Shown here: one piece after another, positions 4,323 through 41,425 of the stretch
How the letters are laid out: each line of letters starts with the position of its first letter
Numbering within the stretch: position 1 is the stretch's first letter
Program-made: the position numbers and the translations under genes
IMG/VR virus record: IMGVR_UViG_3300022745_000063
Span: 1-42,499 of that record
DNA length: 42,499 nucleotides
Strand: one strand, 5' to 3'
Origin: a virus
The notes under the pieces: generated by a model
Told to the model about the DNA's origin: nothing
Database searches by the model: none
Seen by the model: only the letters and a program-made list of their open reading frames with translations

Positions 4323-5897
4323 ATGCCTGCCAACACCAGCCTGCTCAACCCCATTGATCGCCTCGTTTCGTGGTTCAACCCCCGCGCGGGCTTGCAGCGC
4401 ATGGGCGCTCGCCACGCGCTGCAAAGCATCCAGGCCCAAACCGCCCACGAAGCCGCCAAACCCAGTCGCTACCGCCAGTTTTACCAAGACGGCATGGGGC
4501 CAAACGCCATCGTCCAACAGGGTGCAGTGGCCTTGCGCGCCCAAGCTCGTCACCTGGAGCGCAACAACGACATTGCCCGTGGCATCTTGCGCACCATGGT
4601 CAACAACGTGGTGGGGGCCAACGGCATCGGCATCGAGCCGCAGCCGCGCCGTGCAGACGGCTCCATCCACGAAGACTACGCCGCAGGCCTGCGCGAACTC
4701 TGGCGCGACTGGTGCTTGCTGCCCGAAGTCACCCAAACCATGCACTTCGCCAAAGTGCAACGTGCCTTGTGCCGCGCGTGGCTGCGTGATGGTGAAGCCT
4801 TCGGCCAACACCTCACCGGCTTCATTCAGTACCTTGACCACGGCACCCGCGTGCCCTACAGCCTGGAGCTGTTTGAAGCCGACATGGTTCCAATGTGGTA
4901 CCAAGACAATGCCAGCGTCTATCAAGGTATCGAGCGCAACACTTGGGGCCGCGCCACCGGCTACTACGTGTACAAAACCAACCCCATGGACGCGCAAGGG
5001 CAGGGCATCGCCCCTGGCCTCAGCAGCCAAGACCTCAAGCGCATCGACGCGGCCCGCGTGCTGCACTTGGTCATGACAGACCGCATCGGCCAAGTGCGCG
5101 GCATCAGTGAATTTGCCAGCATCATCGGCACGCTCGAAGACATCAAAGACTACGAGCAAAGCGAACGCATCGCCGCCAAAATCAGCGCCAGCCTCACTGC
5201 CTACGTCAAGAAAAACAGCCCGGACGGATACACCGCTGCCGACGCAGCCAAAGATGCGGCGGGCAACGTAGTGGGCCGCGATATGCGTCTGTCGCCCGGA
5301 ATGATCATCGACAACCTGCAAGTTGGTGAAGAAATCGGCCTTATCGACAGCACCCGCCCAAACCCCAACGTCGTCACATTCCGCCAAGGACAACTCCGCC
5401 GTGTGGCCGCAGGCATTGGGGCCAGCTACAGCAGCATCGCAAAAAGCTACGACGGCACATACAGCGCCCAGCGCCAAGAGCTGGTCGAGCAGTGGATCAA
5501 CTACGCCGTGCTGGCCGAAGAGTTCACCGGCCAAGTCATCCAGCCCATCTGGACCAACTTTGTCAACGCAGCTCACCTCAGCGGCGTGTTGCGTACCCCA
5601 AAAGACGTGCGCCCCGGCAGCGCAAACGATGCCATGTACCTTGCCCAGAGCATGCCGTGGATCGACCCCCTCAAAGAAGCCGAGGCCTGGACTGCACTGG
5701 TCAAGGCGGGCTTTGCCAGCGAAATTGAGGTCATGCGCAAGCGCGGCGTCAACCCGCAAGACCTGCTCGACCAAACCTCTTACTGGCGCAACCTCGCCAA
5801 AGAAAAAGGGCTTGTGTTTGACAGCAACGCCGCCAACGACATTGCAAAAAATGCCCGTGTGGCATCTGACCAGCAAGCGTTGCAGCAGACTGCATAA
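4323..5897 (+). CDS. Portal protein, lambda gpB family
   Basis: A 524-residue protein with the features of the lambda portal family (PF05136): the N-terminal LNPIDRLVSWFNPRAGLQR, the conserved ARHLERNNDIARGILRTMV helix near residue 80, the CRAWLRDGEAF motif near residue 155 and the QRQELVEQW region near residue 385. Twelve copies form the channel through which the terminase packs DNA. The C-terminus is Gln-rich. The stop TAA overlaps the first base of the second palindromic element. Confidence 0.95.
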   Translation: MPANTSLLNPIDRLVSWFNPRAGLQRMGARHALQSIQAQTAHEAAKPSRYRQFYQDGMGPNAIVQQGAVALRAQARHLERNNDIARGILRTMVNNVVGANGIGIEPQPRRADGSIHEDYAAGLRELWRDWCLLPEVTQTMHFAKVQRALCRAWLRDGEAFGQHLTGFIQYLDHGTRVPYSLELFEADMVPMWYQDNASVYQGIERNTWGRATGYYVYKTNPMDAQGQGIAPGLSSQDLKRIDAARVLHLVMTDRIGQVRGISEFASIIGTLEDIKDYEQSERIAAKISASLTAYVKKNSPDGYTAADAAKDAAGNVVGRDMRLSPGMIIDNLQVGEEIGLIDSTRPNPNVVTFRQGQLRRVAAGIGASYSSIAKSYDGTYSAQRQELVEQWINYAVLAEEFTGQVIQPIWTNFVNAAHLSGVLRTPKDVRPGSANDAMYLAQSMPWIDPLKEAEAWTALVKAGFASEIEVMRKRGVNPQDLLDQTSYWRNLAKEKGLVFDSNAANDIAKNARVASDQQALQQTA

Positions 5898-23359: not shown

Positions 23360-24298
23360 TCAATGAGTCCTTTGGTACGTCAGACGCTTGCCTTGCACGC
23401 CCTTGAGTAGCGCCTCAGCACGTTGGAAATCATCGTATCCAAGTGCTGTGCGGTGGTTATAGCGGTAGTCATACTCTGCAAGATAGCGATGCAGATGGTT
23501 TTGTCCGCAGTGCTGATAAACACCCTTCATGCCACGCTTGAAAACAGAGAAGAAACCTTCAATCGTGTTGGTATGGATCGAACGATCAACCATTGAAACA
23601 TACTCCCCTGCACCGTGGCGTGTGTAGGCGTGATCTGCGAAGTGCTGACTGACGCTGTTGTAATGGGCCGCTTCGTCAGTGAGGATTCGCGCCTCACGGC
23701 TGATATTGGCTTTCAGAATCGGAATCAGCGTCGTGGCTTTCAGGTCGTCAACAACGATAGACCGGGCCTTGCCAGTCTCACGGTCAACTAGCGACAACAC
23801 CTTATTCTTGTGGTGGTATCCACGGCCACGCTTTTCGCCTTTGGGCTTGATCGTTTTGTCGTGACCAATGAAAGTTTCGTCTACTTCGACGGAGCCACCA
23901 CCAGAGCCAAAAACATCAAACCCATCCTCACGCATGGCTTCACGAATGCGATGAGACATGAACCAAGCCGACTTCAATGTGACCCCGAGAGTGCGGGATA
24001 GTTGATTGGAGCTGATGCCCTTTTTTGATGAGGAAATCAGAAAGATCGCTTGCAGCCACAGACGCATCGGGATATGGCTGGACTCGAAAATCGTCCCCAC
24101 TTTGACGCTAAATGGTTTGCGGCATCCGTAGCACTTCCATGCGCCAACACGGGTTGACTTGCCTTGAAGTTTCCCGGCTTTGCCGATCTCGCCACAGTGA
24201 GGGCAGACAACTCCGTTGGGCCACAGACGAGTCTCGACAAACTCGTAGGCGGCTTCTTCGTTGTGGAAAAACGGCTGTGAAAGGATTGATTCGCTCAT
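23360..24298 (-). CDS. IS1595-family transposase (ISXO2-like)
   Basis: A 312-residue protein. The N-terminal zinc ribbon has Cys32, Cys35, Cys56 and Cys59 (CPHC and CYGC). The ISXO2-like DDE domain shows Asp140 (VEVDETFIGHD), Asp208 (ILTDEAAHYN) and the third-acid region NTIEGFFSVFKRG (Asn244/Glu247). Length and domains are complete, so the enzyme may be active. Start at the ATG near the right end of the element; its upstream region includes the inner end-repeat at 24312-24331. Confidence 0.95.
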   Translation of the reverse strand: MSESILSQPFFHNEEAAYEFVETRLWPNGVVCPHCGEIGKAGKLQGKSTRVGAWKCYGCRKPFSVKVGTIFESSHIPMRLWLQAIFLISSSKKGISSNQLSRTLGVTLKSAWFMSHRIREAMREDGFDVFGSGGGSVEVDETFIGHDKTIKPKGEKRGRGYHHKNKVLSLVDRETGKARSIVVDDLKATTLIPILKANISREARILTDEAAHYNSVSQHFADHAYTRHGAGEYVSMVDRSIHTNTIEGFFSVFKRGMKGVYQHCGQNHLHRYLAEYDYRYNHRTALGYDDFQRAEALLKGVQGKRLTYQRTH

Positions 24299-24609: not shown

Positions 24610-25593
24610 TCATGCCGCCTTCTTCCCAATGAACCCGAGCGCCCGCTCTTTGACTGCCAGCACGCGGTGGGCGTAGCGCATGGCGCTGGCGTGGCTTTTG
24701 TGGTTGAGCACGGCTCGCACGTCGTCAAGGGTGCCGCCGCCTTCGATGATGGCGGTGGCTGTGCCGTGGCGCAGTTTGTGTAGGGTGAGGTGTTGCAGGC
24801 CGAGTGCCTTTTTGGCTTTTGCAAACCAGTAGTTGGCCTCGGTGTAGCTGGGCGGCTGCACCTTGAACGCGGTGCGGGCTTTGGGGTGGATGGGCTGCCA
24901 GTCTGGCGTGGCGTTTTTGGTGTCGGGGATGTGGTAGGCCGTGCCTTCGGGGTTGACGATGGCTTGGGCGGCTTCGGTGTAGCGCTTGCCCGAGTAGTAG
25001 AGCCTGCGCAGCATGGCGCGGACACGGCGGTTTTGTGTGGCCAGCGCGATGCGCAGCATGTCGGCGCGGGTGGCAAACACGTCGCTGGCGTTGCTGACTT
25101 TGGGCACGCTCATGCGCTGTGTGGGCTTGTGCTCGCCGCCAAAGCGGTGCTCCTTCCAGGCGTAGTTGACGGCGGCACGCAGGTAGGCCAAGCGGTTGCG
25201 GATGGTGGCCGGGGCCAGTGGTGTGCCGTCTTCGCGCACGTTGCGGGCTTTGACGGCCACGCACACGTCGGCCAGTGCGCTGAGGGGCCGCCCGGTGTAG
25301 TAGGGCAGGATCTGCGCGAGTTCGAGGGCCACGTCGCGCCCGTGCTTGAGCTGGGGCAGGCGATGGGTGATGTAGAGGGCCACCGCGTCGTCGATCAGCT
25401 CGTGACGAGTTTCAAGGTCGATGGTCGCGCGGGCGTAGAGGTCTGCGGTGGCTTTGCGGTCGTAGGCATCGGCCTGGGCTTGATTCCAAGTTTTTGGAAG
25501 GCGCTTTGCAGTGCGGATTCGGCCTGCGCCCGCAATGGTGCGGTCGAAGGTAAAGACGAATTGACCGCGCTCTTTGTCTCGGTGTATCGACAT
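24610..25593 (-). CDS. int: Tyrosine recombinase integrase
   Basis: A 327-residue protein. Residues about 60-150 form the SAM-like core-binding domain. The catalytic domain has Arg204 (SGKRYTEA), Lys226 (DTKNATP), His272 and Arg275 (LHKLRHG), His298 (LNHKS) and nucleophile Tyr307 (MRYAH). All active-site residues are present. It is the last gene of the leftward operon and abuts attP. The 5' end overlaps the excisionase-like gene by 199 bases. Confidence 0.95.
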   Translation of the reverse strand: MSIHRDKERGQFVFTFDRTIAGAGRIRTAKRLPKTWNQAQADAYDRKATADLYARATIDLETRHELIDDAVALYITHRLPQLKHGRDVALELAQILPYYTGRPLSALADVCVAVKARNVREDGTPLAPATIRNRLAYLRAAVNYAWKEHRFGGEHKPTQRMSVPKVSNASDVFATRADMLRIALATQNRRVRAMLRRLYYSGKRYTEAAQAIVNPEGTAYHIPDTKNATPDWQPIHPKARTAFKVQPPSYTEANYWFAKAKKALGLQHLTLHKLRHGTATAIIEGGGTLDDVRAVLNHKSHASAMRYAHRVLAVKERALGFIGKKAA

Positions 25594-26137: not shown

Positions 26138-26535
26138 GCCTCACCCCCAGCGCTGGCCCATTCGTACACCTGGCGGGCTTGCAGCACGTCCACCACCTCG
26201 AGGATGCGGATGGTGCGGGCGTTTTGGCCCTCTTGGTTTGCGAGGCGCTTGGCTTCGGCCTTGGCTTGCGAGAGGTGTGTGTGCACCTTGCTGGGTGCGC
26301 GACTGCCGTCGATGCTGATCATGAATTGGCCGTACACCTCGCCGCCCAGCTTGCTGAGATGCAGGCGCTTGATGCGGGCCTCGGTGATGCGCCCTTGCAG
26401 GGCGCGCATGAGGTGGCGCTCTTCGTCGTGCTCGAAGTGGTCGGCCTCGATGATGCCTTCGATGACGCGCTGGCACTCGCCCAGCAGGGCGGCGAGCACG
26501 TCGGATTCGGCGGTGATGTGGGTGTGGAGGGTCAT
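26134..26535 (-). CDS. Conserved phage protein of unknown function
   Basis: A 133-residue, mostly helical, charged protein (ESDVLAALLGECQRVIEGII, DEERHLMRALQGRITEARIKRLHLSK). The central GGEVYGQFMISIDGS looks like a beta hairpin. It overlaps the reverse transcriptase stop by four bases and the next gene by four. The direct neighbourhood to the retroelement might mean a link, but nothing in the sequence shows it. Confidence 0.7.
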   Translation of the reverse strand: MTLHTHITAESDVLAALLGECQRVIEGIIEADHFEHDEERHLMRALQGRITEARIKRLHLSKLGGEVYGQFMISIDGSRAPSKVHTHLSQAKAEAKRLANQEGQNARTIRILEVVDVLQARQVYEWASAGGEA

Positions 26536-27890
26536 GCTGGCTTTCTGTAAATCTTGCCGATGTCACCCGCCACAGCGTGGCCACGGCGGCGCAGGATATT
26601 GGCGATGCGGGTTTGGTCGGTGTGCCCGTGGCTGGCTTGGCCGGCGAGCCCTAGGTAGCTGTTGCCAGCGGCGAAGGTGTCGGCCTCGGCCATGTGTTGC
26701 AGGCGCCGCAGGGCGGTGGTGATGGTTTTGCGCCGGATGATGCGGCGCCATGGTTTGATGATGTGGCCCACGAAGTCGATGCCACGCTCGATGGGCTGGA
26801 GGATGGTCTTGCGTGGGTTGAGGCACAGGTTCAGTGTGGCAAGCCGGGCTTCGATGTGCTCGCGCGCTTGGTTGAGCCACTGCGGGCTGTCGTGCAGCAG
26901 GACGAAATCGTCCACGTAGCGCACGTAGTGCGGGGCGCGGAGTTGGTGTTTGATGAATTGGTCCAGATCGTCGAGCAGCACGTTGGCGAAGAATTGGCTG
27001 CTGAGGTTGCCGATGGGCAGGCCGTGGTGGTCTGGCGCGTTGAACAGGCTCTTGTGCGCGGGCACGAGGGCCAGCTCGTGCCGTGTGCCGCGCACCTCGA
27101 CATCAAGGCGGGGGTCGTGCATGAGGATGGTTTCGGTTAAAGCCATCCACCACGGCTCGGTCACCTGGCGCTGTAGCTGGCCGAGCAGGATGGTTTTGTC
27201 GATGCTGACGAAGAAGTTGGCCAGGTCACACTTGAGGTAATGCGCGGGGCGGCTCCAGTTCTGGGTATGGCTGCGCACCTGGTGCTCCAGCCGCTGGGCG
27301 GCGTAGAGGGTGCCCCGGCCGGGGATGCAGGCGCAACTGTCAGCCACGAAGCGGGCATGAAACCTCGGTGCGATTTGGTTGTAGAGCAGGTGGTGGACGA
27401 TGCGGTCGCGGAATTGCGCCGCCCACACTTCGCGCGGCTTGGGGCGGGTGATGACAAAGCAGATGGAGCGTCCGGGCTGGTAGGTGCCGGATTGGAGTTC
27501 TTCATGGAGCTGGTACAGGTTGTGCTCGGCCCGCGCCTCGAAGGCTTCGGCACTGGCGCTGGTGCGCTTGGTACGTCGGCAGTCGAGGTAGGCCTGCACA
27601 AGCTGCTGGAACAGGTGTGGATCTGCGGACGGCAACAGCCGAGCCTTCGTAGCTCTTGTGGTTGTTGTTCTGGTTGCCGTTGTTGAAGTTGCAATTCCAG
27701 GCGTAGGAGGCGCACCTGTCGCGCTGATGATGCCGCCCGCCCGAAGGCCGGAGCCGATCAGGTGGGGAGCTGCACCGGACGCAGCCCGTACGGTGGCGGT
27801 GGTATCCGTGGTGTGCATGTCGGTGGCCTTTTGGGCCAGCGGCGCGACCAGATTCACTGTGCGCACGGGCATGATGGCCTTGACCTTCAT
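26532..27890 (-). CDS. Diversity-generating retroelement reverse transcriptase
   Basis: A 452-residue frame from ATG 27890, whose ATG overlaps the avd stop (ATGA). The recognisable RT domain starts near residue 90 (PHLFQQLVQAYLDCRRTK). It shows RPKPREVWAAQFRDRIVHH, the first catalytic Asp in KCDLANFF (about 222), the DGR-type IGNLSSQ motif (about 293-299) and the YVDD box (325-328). It should copy the template RNA with errors at adenines and pass the cDNA to the variable repeats. The first 85-90 residues are read through the spacer and template repeat and are Thr/Ala-rich. A non-ATG start such as TTG at 27635 would give a more usual RT length. Confidence 0.95.
   Translation of the reverse strand: MKVKAIMPVRTVNLVAPLAQKATDMHTTDTTATVRAASGAAPHLIGSGLRAGGIISATGAPPTPGIATSTTATRTTTTRATKARLLPSADPHLFQQLVQAYLDCRRTKRTSASAEAFEARAEHNLYQLHEELQSGTYQPGRSICFVITRPKPREVWAAQFRDRIVHHLLYNQIAPRFHARFVADSCACIPGRGTLYAAQRLEHQVRSHTQNWSRPAHYLKCDLANFFVSIDKTILLGQLQRQVTEPWWMALTETILMHDPRLDVEVRGTRHELALVPAHKSLFNAPDHHGLPIGNLSSQFFANVLLDDLDQFIKHQLRAPHYVRYVDDFVLLHDSPQWLNQAREHIEARLATLNLCLNPRKTILQPIERGIDFVGHIIKPWRRIIRRKTITTALRRLQHMAEADTFAAGNSYLGLAGQASHGHTDQTRIANILRRRGHAVAGDIGKIYRKPA
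27622..27712 (-). repeat. DGR template repeat (TR), 91 bp
   Basis: On the minus strand it reads as GCC TCC TAC GCC TGG AAT and continues with eight AAC codons, 27 adenines in all, ending GCC GTC CGC AGA. It aligns without gaps to 28296-28386 (91 bp) and, over 88 bp, to 28802-28889. It lies between avd and the RT domain, as in Bordetella phage BPP-1. All differences from the two variable repeats fall on its adenines. Confidence 0.97.
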
Positions 27891-28264
27891 GCTGCAGGCG
27901 CCCTGTTCGTTCGTTTGAGCCAGCCACCGGCCTGTTTGCCGACGCTCCCCAGCAGCTCGATGGAGTCTGCCCACAGCTTGGGCGAGATGTACCGGGCATC
28001 GTGGCTGACGCGCAGCAGCACTGTGATGGCGCGCTCGCGAGTGAGCAACTGCTCAATGTACCACGCCCGGGCCTCGTGCTGGCTGGCATTGGCCAAGGCC
28101 ATCAGATCGAGCATTTCGACGCAATGCTGGGTGATTTTCTCGCCCAGCGCCCGCTTGACGGTGCGCGGCATCTGGACTTGGGCCCTGATGGCCAGATCCA
28201 GCAGGCGCGCGCCGGTGCGATGAATGGGAAGTTCGGTGTGAAGTGCCACGGTGGCTGTGCTCAA
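27887..28264 (-). CDS. avd: DGR accessory variability determinant (Avd)
   Basis: A 125-residue, all-helical basic protein (GARLLDLAIRAQVQMPRTVKR, QHCVEMLDLMALANASQHEARAWYIEQLL, ERAITVLLRVSHDARYISPKLW, ELLGSVGKQAGGWLK). This is the four-helix pattern of Avd, the pentameric protein that binds the RT and template RNA. The frame starts with TTG at 28264; a GTG at 28249 is an alternative. No clear SD is present. It follows the second target gene and overlaps the RT frame start by ATGA. Confidence 0.9.
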   Translation of the reverse strand: MSTATVALHTELPIHRTGARLLDLAIRAQVQMPRTVKRALGEKITQHCVEMLDLMALANASQHEARAWYIEQLLTRERAITVLLRVSHDARYISPKLWADSIELLGSVGKQAGGWLKRTNRAPAA

Positions 28265-28267
28265 TTA

Positions 28268-28284
28268 AAGGATTGAAGGATCAA
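28268..28284 (-). repeat. 17-base sequence shared after both variable repeats
   Basis: AAGGATTGAAGGATCAA (plus strand) occurs here and at 28768-28784, overlapping the stop codons of both target genes. It is absent beside the template repeat. It may be a remnant of target-gene duplication or a site needed for retrohoming. Confidence 0.7.
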
Positions 28285-28748
28285 AGTGCTGAGACTCTGC
28301 GGACGGCAACAGCCGAGCCTTCGTAGCTCTTGTGGGTGCTGCTCTGGTAGCCGTGGCGGAAGTAGCAACCCCAGGCGTAGGAGGCGTCTTCCTTGTGTGT
28401 CTCAGATGACCAGTGCCACTCTGGCTTGAGGTGAGGTTTGCAGTTCGCGAAAAGCAGGGCCTGCTCTTGCCTGGACGGGAGTGAGCCGCCGACGCTTGCC
28501 GCCCAATCGGTTGCGTCTTGCCAGTTGAGTGCGCTGGCGGGCTGGGCGGCCATGAGCACCAGGTGGTGGGCGGTTTGTCCTTTCTCGTCCAGGATGACGC
28601 CGGCGTAGTGCTCGTCGGGTTGCAGGTTGAGCGGTGACTGTGCGTCATCGGCCTGAAACTGCGGGTTGATGGCTTTGTGCAGAGCTTCCATCACGGCGAG
28701 GGTGCGGGGTGTGAACTCAATGTCGATGGGGATGGTGATGCCGGACAT
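28281..28748 (-). CDS. DGR target protein 2, C-type-lectin-like variable protein
   Basis: A 155-residue protein from the ATG at 28748. Residues 1-60 are specific to this copy (ITIPIDIEFTPRTLAVMEALHK). The C-terminal half matches target 1: GSLPSRQEQALLFANCKPHLKPEWHWSSE, then the variable region at residues 121-151 ending KSYEGSAVAVR. Gly127, Tyr129, Arg131, His132, Tyr134, Ser136, Ser137 and Thr138 are the codons changed from the template. The DUF1566-like C-type lectin fold is inferred from the pattern. It is expected to be a binding protein with a variable surface; its ligand is unknown. Confidence 0.92.
   Translation of the reverse strand: MSGITIPIDIEFTPRTLAVMEALHKAINPQFQADDAQSPLNLQPDEHYAGVILDEKGQTAHHLVLMAAQPASALNWQDATDWAASVGGSLPSRQEQALLFANCKPHLKPEWHWSSETHKEDASYAWGCYFRHGYQSSTHKSYEGSAVAVRRVSAL
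28296..28386 (-). repeat. DGR variable repeat 2 (VR2), 91 bp
   Basis: Differs from TR (27622-27712) at ten positions, all TR adenines: AAT to GGT, AAC to TAC, AAC to CGC, AAC to CAC, AAC to TAC, AAC to AGC twice, and AAC to ACC. None of the 64 non-A positions differs. It lies at the 3' end of target gene 2, with the GC-rich GTTGCCGTCCGC as the likely initiation region. Confidence 0.97.
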
Positions 28749-28780
28749 GTTGGGCTTTCGTGAGTTGAAGGATTGAAGGA

Positions 28781-29161
28781 TCAAGCGCTGAGCGGAATCA
28801 AGCGGACGGCAACAGCCGAGCCTTCGTAGCTCTTGCGGGTGTAGTTCTGGTTGCCGTCGTAGAAGCGGCAACCCCAGGCGCAGGAGGCGTCGTACTCATC
28901 AGCAGTCCAGTGCCACTCGGGCTCCAGCTTGACCTTGATGTTGGCGAAGAGCAGGGCCGCAACGGGGCGCGTGGGGAGTTCGCCGCCTTGCTCTTTGGTC
29001 CAGGCCTTTGCGGCTGCCCAGTCGAGGTCTGTCCCATGTCCGGGAAGCAGCACAACAGCGCAATGTGTGCCGTCTGGCTTGGTGGTCAACCCGGCGAAGG
29101 TACCGCCGTCGAGCGATGCGCCCAGTGCGGGCAGGTTGGTGAGGTTGAGAGGCTGTGACAT
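28781..29161 (-). CDS. DGR target protein 1, C-type-lectin-like variable protein
   Basis: A 126-residue protein with a strong SD (AAAGGAG, five bases before ATG). It is related to target 2 over its C-terminal 75 residues: GGELPTRPVAALLFANIKVKLEPEWHW, then the variable region at about 91-120 with Cys94, Gly97, Arg99, Tyr101, Asp102, Tyr107, Thr108 and Arg109 differing from the template-encoded residues. There is no signal peptide or coiled coil. It is the first DGR gene in the leftward operon. It is a likely variable ligand-binding protein of unknown location. Confidence 0.92.
   Translation of the reverse strand: MSQPLNLTNLPALGASLDGGTFAGLTTKPDGTHCAVVLLPGHGTDLDWAAAKAWTKEQGGELPTRPVAALLFANIKVKLEPEWHWTADEYDASCAWGCRFYDGNQNYTRKSYEGSAVAVRLIPLSA
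28802..28889 (-). repeat. DGR variable repeat 1 (VR1), 88 bp
   Basis: Differs from TR at ten positions, all TR adenines: TAC to TGC, AAT to GGT, AAC to CGC, AAC to TAC, AAC to GAC, AAC to TAC, AAC to ACC and CAC to CGC. None of 63 non-A positions differs. Adenines in the 3' part (AAG AGC TAC GAA) are unchanged in both VRs. Confidence 0.97.
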
Positions 29162-29176: not shown

Positions 29177-29644
29177 TCACGGTTGTGGAATGGTTTGGCC
29201 GCGCTGCATGCGCAGCATCACGGCCTGCATGGCGGTGTGCATTTGCTGCGGGGTGCTGAGGGCGATGAGTTGCTCGTAGAGGTCGAGCAGGGGCGGGATG
29301 TGCTCGCGGCTGAGGTGGTCTGTGCCCCAGTGGCCGAGGCGCTGGGCGCGGTCGAGCATGTGCATGAGGGCGTCTTGTGCGTGTTGCACGGGGACGACCA
29401 GCAGGGGGTCGATTTCTTCGGCTCGCAGCAGGCACACATTCGCGCAGCAGGCGAGGTTGTGGAAGTCTTCTTCGGTGCCTTGGCCGGTGCACAGGCTCTG
29501 CCAGCTCACGCGCAGGGGCAGGGTGAGGCTGGTTTGCTCGGGCTGGGTGAAGGGCTGCACGCGGGCCATGACGCGGAAGAACGCGCCGGGGTCGGCGCGC
29601 AACCGATGCTTTGCATGTGCATCTTTTCTGTGTTTCGTTTTCAT
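29177..29644 (-). CDS. Conserved phage protein of unknown function
   Basis: A 155-residue protein from the ATG at 29644, coupled to the rha stop (ATGA). It is mostly helical (GTEEDFHNLACCANVCLLRAEEIDPLL, AQDALMHMLDRAQRLG, IPPLLDLYEQLIALSTPQQMHTAM). Two adjacent Cys and a basic N-terminus (KTKHRKDAHAKHRLR) are visible. No family is recognised. It lies between rha and the first DGR target, 15 bases ahead of the latter. Confidence 0.7.
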   Translation of the reverse strand: MKTKHRKDAHAKHRLRADPGAFFRVMARVQPFTQPEQTSLTLPLRVSWQSLCTGQGTEEDFHNLACCANVCLLRAEEIDPLLVVPVQHAQDALMHMLDRAQRLGHWGTDHLSREHIPPLLDLYEQLIALSTPQQMHTAMQAVMLRMQRGQTIPQP

Positions 29645-30390
29645 GCAACCCCCTTCGCCCCACCCACCGCCGCCCGTGCGGCTTGTTCGGCTTGTGCGGC
29701 GAGTTTGGCGACGATGCCCATGTGTGACACGCAGGACAGCAGGGCGTGGTGGTGTTCGCTGGCGAGTGCGTTGCCCAGGGTGGTGTCGCGCACGGCTTTG
29801 AGGGCTTTGTCGGTGTTGATGTGGCCGTGCCCGTTGATGGCCATGTAGGCCACGCGCCGCTGCATGTGCTCGTGCAGCAGGGGGTGCAGCTCGCGCATGA
29901 TTTCCCAGGCGCGGTCGTTGATGGTGCGCAGCAGCTCGGGCGGCAGGGGCTGGGGTTCGGACTGGCCCGAGAGCAGCAGGCCGCGCACGTCGATGGTGGC
30001 AGGCTCTGGCGTGGGCAGGGCCACGGGCGCTGCCTTGACGGCTTTGCGCTGGGTGCGCTCGCGCAGGGTTTGCTCCATGCGGTTGAAGTGGGCGATGTAG
30101 CGCTCTTTCCACTGCGCGGCCTTGGCTCCGGTGAAACCCATGCAGAGGAAAGCGAAGCCGTCGCGGGTGATGCGGTATTCGGTGCGCTGCTCGCCTTTGG
30201 CGTCGGTGTATTCAACGGGCTTGAAATTCAGCGCGTTGAATTCTGGTGAGCAGTCCAGATTGCGGATGCGTTCAAGCACGTTCTTGTGCTCTCTGCCGAA
30301 AGTCTCGGCAATGTCGCGGCTGGTGGTGGTGGGGGAACCGTCAATGACGGTGATGCGTGGCGCGGTGCGCCGTGAGGGGGTGTTAGCCAT
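29641..30390 (-). CDS. rha: Rha-family phage regulatory protein (copy 1)
   Basis: A 249-residue protein from the ATG at 30390, with strong SD AAAGGAG. The N-terminal Rha domain is clear (ITVIDGSPTTTSRDIAETFGREHKNVLERIRNL, YRITRDGFAFLCMGFTGAKAAQWKERYIAHFNRME). The C-terminal part (TIDVRGLLLSGQSEPQPLPP onward) is nearly identical to copy 2. Rha proteins act as phage regulators or antirepressors. The frame stays open upstream to ATG 30681, giving a 346-residue form, but the leader appears conserved as RNA rather than protein. The SD can pair with the C4-like RNA loop. Confidence 0.88.
   Translation of the reverse strand: MANTPSRRTAPRITVIDGSPTTTSRDIAETFGREHKNVLERIRNLDCSPEFNALNFKPVEYTDAKGEQRTEYRITRDGFAFLCMGFTGAKAAQWKERYIAHFNRMEQTLRERTQRKAVKAAPVALPTPEPATIDVRGLLLSGQSEPQPLPPELLRTINDRAWEIMRELHPLLHEHMQRRVAYMAINGHGHINTDKALKAVRDTTLGNALASEHHHALLSCVSHMGIVAKLAAQAEQAARAAVGGAKGVA
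29854..29994 (-). repeat. 141-bp inverted repeat shared by both rha genes
   Basis: Matches 41816-41956 in the opposite orientation, with two differences in 141 bases, while flanking rha sequence has diverged strongly. This suggests recent gene conversion. Being inverted and about 11.8 kb apart, the copies could also allow inversion of the immunity and replication region by homologous recombination. Confidence 0.85.
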
Positions 30391-30445
30391 GATGGCTCCT
30401 TTGGAACAGGTCTTGAACCTGCCACCCTCCCTGCCAAGAGAGGGC

Positions 30446-30517
30446 GGCAGACCGTGCAGGTTGGCAGACCGGCCAAAGGAACCGGCACACCCTTGCGGGT
30501 GTCCCGCACGGCCCGCC
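30446..30517 (-). ncRNA. C4-like antisense RNA, copy 1
   Basis: A 72-base element with a 15-bp closing stem (30503-30517 with 30446-30460) and two inner hairpins: ACACCC-GCAA-GGGTGT, and CCGG-TTCCTTTGG-CCGG. The second loop contains TCCTTTGG, exactly complementary to CCAAAGGA at the rha SD (30397-30404). This is the design of the P1 C4 RNA, which blocks antirepressor translation in trans. The second copy (41300-41371) has the same structure with compensating changes. Confidence 0.82.
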
Positions 30518-30560
30518 AAAAAGGGAGCCATGCCCCGCGCTGCATCGGGAGCAATAGAAA

Positions 30561-30588
30561 AGCCGCAAACCTCAAGAGGCGTGCGGCT
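30561..30588 (-). terminator. Hairpin with short T-run in the rha leader (copy 1)
   Basis: AGCCGCA-cg-CCTC-tt-GAGG-tt-TGCGGCT followed by TTTC on the minus strand. The equivalent in copy 2 keeps the stem and has a longer T-run. It lies between the leader promoter and the C4-like element. It may be an attenuator; with only three extra T it is weak as a terminator. Confidence 0.5.
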
Positions 30589-30642
30589 CGCAGCGCCTTT
30601 GGTGCCGGGCTGCCAAGCCCGCATCCCCGAAGGGACGGGCGA

Positions 30643-30672
30643 AGTGTAGCCGATGCGCTCGGGCATGGTCAA
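30643..30672 (-). promoter_or_regulatory. Promoter of the C4-rha leader, copy 1
   Basis: A -35 TTGACC (30667-30672) and -10 TACACT (30643-30648) with an 18-base spacer. The -10 region and following GCCCGTCCCTTCGGGGAT are conserved at copy 2, where the rest of the leader has diverged. It lies at the start of an in-frame extension of rha, directly after the preceding gene. Confidence 0.65.
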
Positions 30673-30677
30673 GGTGG

Positions 30678-31109
30678 TCATGCTGGCAGCGCCTCCACGC
30701 GCCCGTCGCGGTAGTACAGACCATCGGGCCTGCGGCTGGGGTGTTGGAAGTGGTCGTCTGCGCCGGGGCGCACGGCGGGGGCGGTGAGTTCGTGGCCGGT
30801 GTATTGGCCGGGGATGGCTCCGCTGCGGTTGGTGATGGGCATGCTGGCTGCGGCCACTTTTTCGATGGCGGCGGCGCGCTCGAATTTGTTGGCCACGGTG
30901 CGGATGCCTTTGGCGGTGGCGGCGTAGCTACCGTCGGGCTCGCGCTTGATGTAGCCCGCTGCGGCGAGGTTGTCGATGATCTTGGATGTCCACTCGTCAG
31001 AGCCACGGCCAAGGCCGGTGCGGCGCATGGGTGTGTCGATGATCTGCTTGAGCACCTTGAAGGTTTTGCTGCTCATGGTGCGCAGGCTGGGGATGCAGGT
31101 GATGGTCAT
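30678..31109 (-). CDS. Phage protein with winged-helix-like N-terminus
   Basis: A 143-residue protein; an internal ATG (MSSKTF) is a possible later start. Residues about 10-75 (KTFKVLKQIIDTPMRRTGLG, DEWTSKIIDNLAAAGYIKRE, GSYAATAKGIRTV) resemble a winged helix. The C-terminus is Gly/Pro-rich (NRSGAIPGQYTGHELTAPAVRPG). It is coupled to the HD hydrolase gene upstream and ends at the start of the C4-rha leader. Confidence 0.65.
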   Translation of the reverse strand: MTITCIPSLRTMSSKTFKVLKQIIDTPMRRTGLGRGSDEWTSKIIDNLAAAGYIKREPDGSYAATAKGIRTVANKFERAAAIEKVAAASMPITNRSGAIPGQYTGHELTAPAVRPGADDHFQHPSRRPDGLYYRDGRVEALPA

Positions 31110-41273: not shown

Positions 41274-41299
41274 CATGCGCAACGCATGGCTCCACTTTT

Positions 41300-41371
41300 G
41301 GCGGGCCGTGCGGGGGCACCCGTAAGGGTGCGCCGGTCCTTGCCCGGTACGCCAACCCCGTACGGTCTGCC
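41300..41371 (+). ncRNA. C4-like antisense RNA, copy 2
   Basis: Same size (72 bases) and layout as copy 1: closing stem 41300-41315 with 41356-41371, hairpin GCACCC-GTAA-GGGTGC and hairpin CCGG-TCCTTGC-CCGG. The whole second loop, TCCTTGC (41337-41343), is the exact complement of GCAAGGA at the rha SD (41413-41419). Compared with copy 1, loop and SD have changed together, and the first stem pair is G-C instead of A-T. This strongly supports an antisense pairing function. Confidence 0.83.
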
Positions 41372-41425
41372 TCCTGTGATTGGCGTCGCTTGGGGCAGGT
41401 TCATAACCTGTTGCAAGGAGCCATC

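Follow-up and report, generated by a model that had tools for sequence, protein, structure and literature searches.

We describe a diversity-generating retroelement (DGR) carried by a 42,499-nucleotide viral sequence (IMG/VR record IMGVR_UViG_3300022745_000063, positions 1 to 42,499; the window). The element occupies positions 26532-29161 on the minus strand and is a genuine DGR with all of its parts intact, reading 5' to 3' target 2, target 1, avd, the template repeat (TR) and the frame of the reverse transcriptase (RT). An initial annotation had proposed a complete DGR in which two free-standing targets are served by one template, and every element that it listed was recovered in place on the minus strand; that this is a functional type of DGR with two targets is in our view nearly certain. 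A mirrored layout of the template RNA and a target pair present across the lineage set this lineage apart as a variant worth specialist attention. The parts of the element are as follows.

28781..29161, minus strand: target 2 (distal), open reading frame (ORF) of 126 amino acids, C-type-lectin-like, an orthologous class across relatives; AlphaFold2 predicted local distance difference test score (pLDDT) 83.8
28802..28890, minus strand: variable repeat 2 (VR2), in the 3' end of target 2 (repeat D1); 10/10 core mismatches on TR adenines
28281..28748, minus strand: target 1 (proximal), ORF of 155 amino acids, short N-terminal helix and C-type lectin domain; AlphaFold2 pLDDT 90.7
28299..28387, minus strand: variable repeat 1 (VR1), in the 3' end of target 1; 10/10 core mismatches on TR adenines
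27887..28264, minus strand: avd, 125 amino acids, TTG start; Pfam bAvd PF22296 (E 3.9e-10, 40.6 bits, cut-off 40) and PHROG 3206 (E 4.2e-23)
27712..27903, minus strand: RT-15 RNA (Rfam RF03018), structured 5' leader of the template RNA; 156.9 bits, E 9.5e-38, full-length match 1-192
27625..27713, minus strand: TR, 89 nt with 25 adenines, from repeat search and TR/VR alignment
26532..27635, minus strand: DGR-type RT with IGNLSSQ and YVDD; RVT_1 (E 5.9e-17), PHROG 1423 (E 1.2e-111) and PDB 8ub7 (E 4.6e-36)

Within the 88-nt core of the repeat, TR adenines account for 20/20 mismatches between template and copies (10 in VR1 and 10 in VR2). The sole non-adenine mismatch is the first base of the 89-nt repeat, that is, the repeat edge, and with this mismatch counted the restriction to adenines has P = 5.9e-6 per VR. 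Three sites, TR, VR1 and VR2, match 98-100% of the non-A bases in a scan of the whole window, the next best site reaching 59%; the single template repeat and the two targets that align to it at their 3' ends thus stand as annotated, and the scan found no further VR in the window, virion genes included. Because the 3' ends of VR1 and VR2 match the TR exactly, one template would feed both targets, which would vary independently. A 36-nt core of the window TR was found exactly in 59 viral contigs; the template itself is therefore strongly conserved.

Both RT motifs named in the initial annotation, YVDD and IGNLSSQ, are present, and the matches to RVT_1 and PHROG 1423 are accompanied by one to PDB 8ub7, the closest solved structure, which we take to be the BPP-1 enzyme. 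The start of the RT is uncertain and lies at TTG 27635, inside the TR, or at GTG 27599. An ORF of 480 amino acids reads through the TR, its N-terminal part lacking conservation in relatives; this extension was rejected as real coding sequence, since the upstream limit of the frame varies and, in one subclade, coincides with the TR edge or falls within the TR. A defence RT or retron was also ruled out: the PADLOC and NCBIfam matches amount to generic RT similarity, every NCBIfam match being below cut-off, with the retron, DRT and group II models scoring far under it. The presence of an Avd-like protein is borne out by the Pfam bAvd match and by PHROG 3206, annotated as 'Avd protein of DGR', while the NCBIfam NF033474 match of avd stays below the model cut-off.

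The VRs occupy the C-terminal part of C-type lectin targets, as judged from PDB 8q4e for target 1 and from homology to target 1 for target 2. Target 1 starts at ATG 28748 by alignment (the ORF as listed, to 28871, begins too early) and has a weak Pfam Lcl_C match; its best PDB match and nearest solved fold is 8q4e, the C-terminal domain of Legionella Lcl (E 1.4e-4). Unlike Lcl, target 1 is a small free-standing phage protein with no evident membrane segment. A fold search of target 2 against the PDB gave no confident match, with C-type lectins near the top of the list, and with the VR removed target 2 is homologous to target 1 at 52.8 bits. Secreted or membrane targets were rejected, as a hydrophobicity scan found no membrane-like segment in 132/135 targets.

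The gene order target-avd-TR-RT is that of BPP-1 (mtd, avd, TR, brt), as the initial annotation had stated; the likeness does not extend to the template RNA, where the structured element lies 5' of the TR here versus 3' in BPP-1. RT-15 (192 nt; RF03018 gathering threshold 82 bits) extends from where avd ends into the first TR bases, filling the gap between avd and TR, and the RT frame opens in or beside the TR with no spacer between the two. In BPP-1, by contrast, avd adjoins the TR without a gap (3021/3020) and 144 nt separate the TR (2887) from brt (2742). The RNA in this spacer, 3' of the TR, is reported to recruit bRT-Avd and to prime synthesis of complementary DNA (cDNA) (PMC12875486). 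An Rfam scan of BPP-1 as control placed Phage_DGR RNA (RF03022) exactly in the TR-brt spacer, and the Rfam scan of the window did not find this family. RT-15 ends at the TR edge in 15/15 lineage relatives tested, and an alignment of 41 leaders shows compensatory changes in 27/46 predicted pairs. Past the first 20 codons, which are partly the TR end, the part of the RT gene 3' of the TR showed no synonymous constraint, and a hidden RNA element there was rejected on this ground. Taken together, RT-15 is probably a functional part of the template ribonucleoprotein.

BPP-1 further requires a GC-rich GRNA hairpin downstream of the VR (PMC3240598). A GC-rich hairpin with a GRNA loop 3' of the VR was found in 0/144 lineage VRs, and a GC-rich stem of 7 bp or more follows the VR in 33/144. 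The window, unlike BPP-1, has no such hairpin and no GC-rich stem 3' of the VR; a T-rich repeated stretch follows both VRs.

28253..28284, minus strand: T-rich repeated stretch just 3' of VR1, TTGATCCTTCAATCCTT... (repeat D8, 81% identical to 28753-28784)
28753..28784, minus strand: the same T-rich stretch just 3' of VR2 (repeat D8)

The RT-15 RNA is not new, because it is a known Rfam family and was annotated next to the RT by the depositors of Pseudomonas phage Cruim01. No description of RT-15 as a fixed 5' leader of the TR was found in the literature searched, which did not cover Weinberg 2017, the source of RT-15; likewise, the term 'RT-15 RNA' is absent from the papers covered, a set that excluded Weinberg 2017 and Wu 2018 (DGR classes). 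In a separate observation, RT-16 RNA (RF03019; L118, 2873-3033) ends exactly at the TR start of an archaeal (Pacearchaeota) DGR, and a 5' structured leader may therefore occur in other DGR lineages.

Two targets are the rule in the lineage of the window DGR. Relatives were found in 80 viral contigs, in several cultured phages and at 31 genome loci of bacteria or archaea (Comamonadaceae, Rhodocyclaceae, Pseudomonas and others), and each was scanned for A-tolerant repeats. RT identity was 58% or higher in 90 records, of which 81, equal to 71 distinct RTs, have a readable TR. At least two VRs are present in 80 of these 81 (75 by a strict rule and 5 more by a lenient one), a single VR occurring in L041 only. 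Spacing is nearly fixed, with median TR-to-VR offsets of 672 and 1167 nt, and a third VR was seen in nine records by the strict scan and in Shewanella phage vB_Sb_QDWS (QDWS) by a whole-genome scan. RTs below 58% identity mostly have one VR, or a second VR far away. With the VR excluded, proximal targets best match the proximal class in 56/62 cases and distal targets the distal class in 54/61; the two targets are therefore an old, maintained pair of different proteins and not a recent duplication. Substitutions in VR1 and VR2 show no greater likeness within genomes than between them (P = 0.34), and evolution of the two VRs towards the same ligand was rejected for want of any within-genome excess of similarity. 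Nine RT relatives (L020, L033, L036, L047, L100-L102, L107 and L108) have no detectable TR/VR pair, which may reflect contig edges, decay or a different template.

The initial annotation had called a tandem target pair uncommon. It is not so in this RT lineage, and elsewhere several target genes occur in 235/948 catalogued DGRs (PMC6642488) and two in about 13% (PMC10743442). Two-target phage DGRs have already been described (PMC11792537, PMC8143477), and it is already known both that multi-target DGRs are common enough and, from publication, that one exists in Burkholderia phage Magia (NC_070954; PMC7883833). The DGR of Magia resembles that of the window in its RT (62.6% identical), avd, TR and tandem targets gp46/gp47, in the RT-15 RNA 5' of the TR and in its location near excisionase/integrase; unlike the window, Magia is a myophage and has a third target at gp57, giving three VRs by the present scan, whereas its authors name genes 47 and 57 alone as targets (PMC7883833). 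Pseudomonas phages LPPA56, Haboob and Cruim01 and Shewanella phage QDWS share with the window targets upstream of avd and RTs 59-63% identical to its own, have two or three VRs, and differ in their hosts and in being mostly without DGR annotation; RT-15 was found by scan in LPPA56 and Haboob and stands in the depositor's annotation of Cruim01. BPP-1 is more distant (RT about 31% identical), with A-specific TR/VR differences and Avd in common and a single tail-protein target in the tail module as against two early-region targets. The two-target DGRs of gut phages (nd4/nd12 tentaclins; Lelie, Lagaffe_CP and CP11; Bacuni phages) likewise combine one template with two C-type lectin targets in temperate or gut phages, but their targets are unrelated, the VR of one tentaclin is N-terminal, some of the target genes are widely separated and several resemble virion proteins.

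Comparison of phages with nearly the same TR indicates that DGRs of this lineage have been active. Between Magia and QDWS, whose RT DNA is 89% identical, VR differences fall on TR adenines in 12/12 and 11/12 cases, and between L046 and L048 in 17/18 and 14/14. From these alignments, recent activity in the lineage appears very likely, and the window DGR is probably active. Across 21 genomes, variation reaches 95% at TR adenines of AAC codons and is almost absent at those of CAG and AAG codons, a pattern consistent with the preference for AAC reported from reconstituted BPP-1 (PMC12875486). Among the near-identical phages L050, L054 (TR at 5879), L049 and L041, the TRs of the first two carry 11 and 13 non-A bases where the TR of the relatives has A; these bases resemble the phages' own VRs, as would follow from VR-to-TR conversion (template rewriting) or from a strain-mixed assembly.

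The surrounding genes are best explained by a temperate siphophage carrying the DGR in its early/integrase region. The late module occupies about 0.1-21 kb of the plus strand and encodes the small and large terminase subunits, portal, head protease, tape measure, distal tail protein, central fibre and endolysin, while the DGR, on the minus strand, is flanked upstream by a Rha-type regulator and an HD-domain gene and downstream by a tyrosine integrase.

24610..25593, minus strand: tyrosine integrase, downstream of the DGR; PF00589 (E 1e-10)
29641..30681, minus strand: Rha-type phage regulatory protein, upstream of the DGR, ORF start probably too early; PF09669 (E 5e-30)

The initial annotation had placed the target pair in an early operon of a temperate phage; the integrase downstream, Rha upstream and a strand opposite the late genes agree with this, and 'early operon' is a good inference because of gene position and strand. 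An integrase match was obtained in 31/38 lineage records, and in 26 of these 31 the gene is found downstream of the RT, 0-8.5 kb away and in either orientation. The window also has an IS1595-type transposase ORF (23360-24298, minus strand), named from its translation alone, in the interval from the late module to the integrase.

As a whole, an intact two-target DGR with an RT-15 leader and non-virion targets is the explanation that we favour and hold to be likely. One transcript, running target 2, target 1, avd, RT-15 RNA, TR and RT, would supply the RT, Avd and the template RNA. The RT-15 leader may fold beside the TR and recruit the RT-Avd complex, for which BPP-1 uses the spacer 3' of the TR; the RT would then copy the TR with adenine misreading, as the A-specific pattern and the comparison of related phages suggest, and the cDNA would replace VR1 or VR2. 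The products would be two small, soluble binding proteins with a C-type lectin fold, maintained as separate orthologous classes. Some points weigh against this explanation: the label 'early' is read from gene position and strand, activity of the window copy is extrapolated from related phages, binding of RT-15 to RT or Avd is a proposal, since its role could be termination of cDNA synthesis or expression alone, and a model with no 3' spacer leaves cDNA priming unexplained. RT-15 might accordingly do no more than stop cDNA synthesis or control expression, with RT recruitment and priming through some other element, for example target DNA or RNA within the RT coding region. RT-15 has the position of a BPP-1 motif that halts reverse transcription, located 5' of the TR where avd ends (PMC12875486), but a highly structured, covarying RNA of 192 nt exceeds what a stop signal needs and synonymous sites of the RT gene past codon 20, on the 3' side of the TR, are not conserved to any extra degree, so that we regard such a limited role as rather unlikely. 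That the DGR has decayed within the remnant of an inactive prophage, as the nearby transposase ORF and the lack of a detectable TR in nine RT relatives could suggest, is highly improbable given that every part (RT, avd, both targets, TR, RT-15) is intact, that the VR core departs from the TR at adenines alone, and that the terminase, portal, tail and lysis genes on the contig are intact as well.

The role of the targets is more evenly balanced. As in an ordinary BPP-1-like DGR, both proteins could be built into the virion as receptor-binding subunits, with diversification of host range as the outcome: in Roux clades 1, 4 and 6, phage DGRs mostly target tail proteins (PMC8144416), the C-type lectin fold is common to known target proteins, and a change of host range was suggested by the authors of Magia (PMC7883833). 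The window targets are however small and encoded in the early region on the strand opposite the late genes, that is, outside the tail module. The same cassette occurs both in sheath-bearing phages (a tail sheath was found in 5/38 lineage records, there on the strand opposite the RT, and is annotated in Magia) and in sheath-less ones, and in the 38 records all lectin-like homologues are on the RT strand and none was found among structural genes. We give virion targets somewhat less than an even chance. Since the targets are encoded away from virion genes in phages of either tail type, a role in or on the host cell during infection or lysogeny, and not at the tail tip, is mildly suggested and stands at about an even chance. 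A bolder and quite doubtful extension is a mechanistically distinct, mirror-image class of DGR, in which an RNA for RT-Avd binding and priming (RT-15) lies 5' of the template and a conserved, early, non-virion pair of binding proteins is diversified to act in or on the host cell, e.g., against host defences or competing phages.

In the BPP-1 model, the RNA that recruits the RT and primes cDNA synthesis lies 3' of the template; a widespread lineage with a structured RNA on the 5' side allows a direct test of how general this model is and suggests what the Rfam family RT-15 probably does. With a conserved, diversified pair outside the virion genes, one may also ask what advantage a temperate phage has in randomising proteins that may not be at the tail tip. 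Apart from the DGR, two Rfam C4 antisense RNAs were detected in the window, at 41294-41377 (plus strand) and 30440-30523 (minus strand), the second lying inside the Rha gene or upstream of it.

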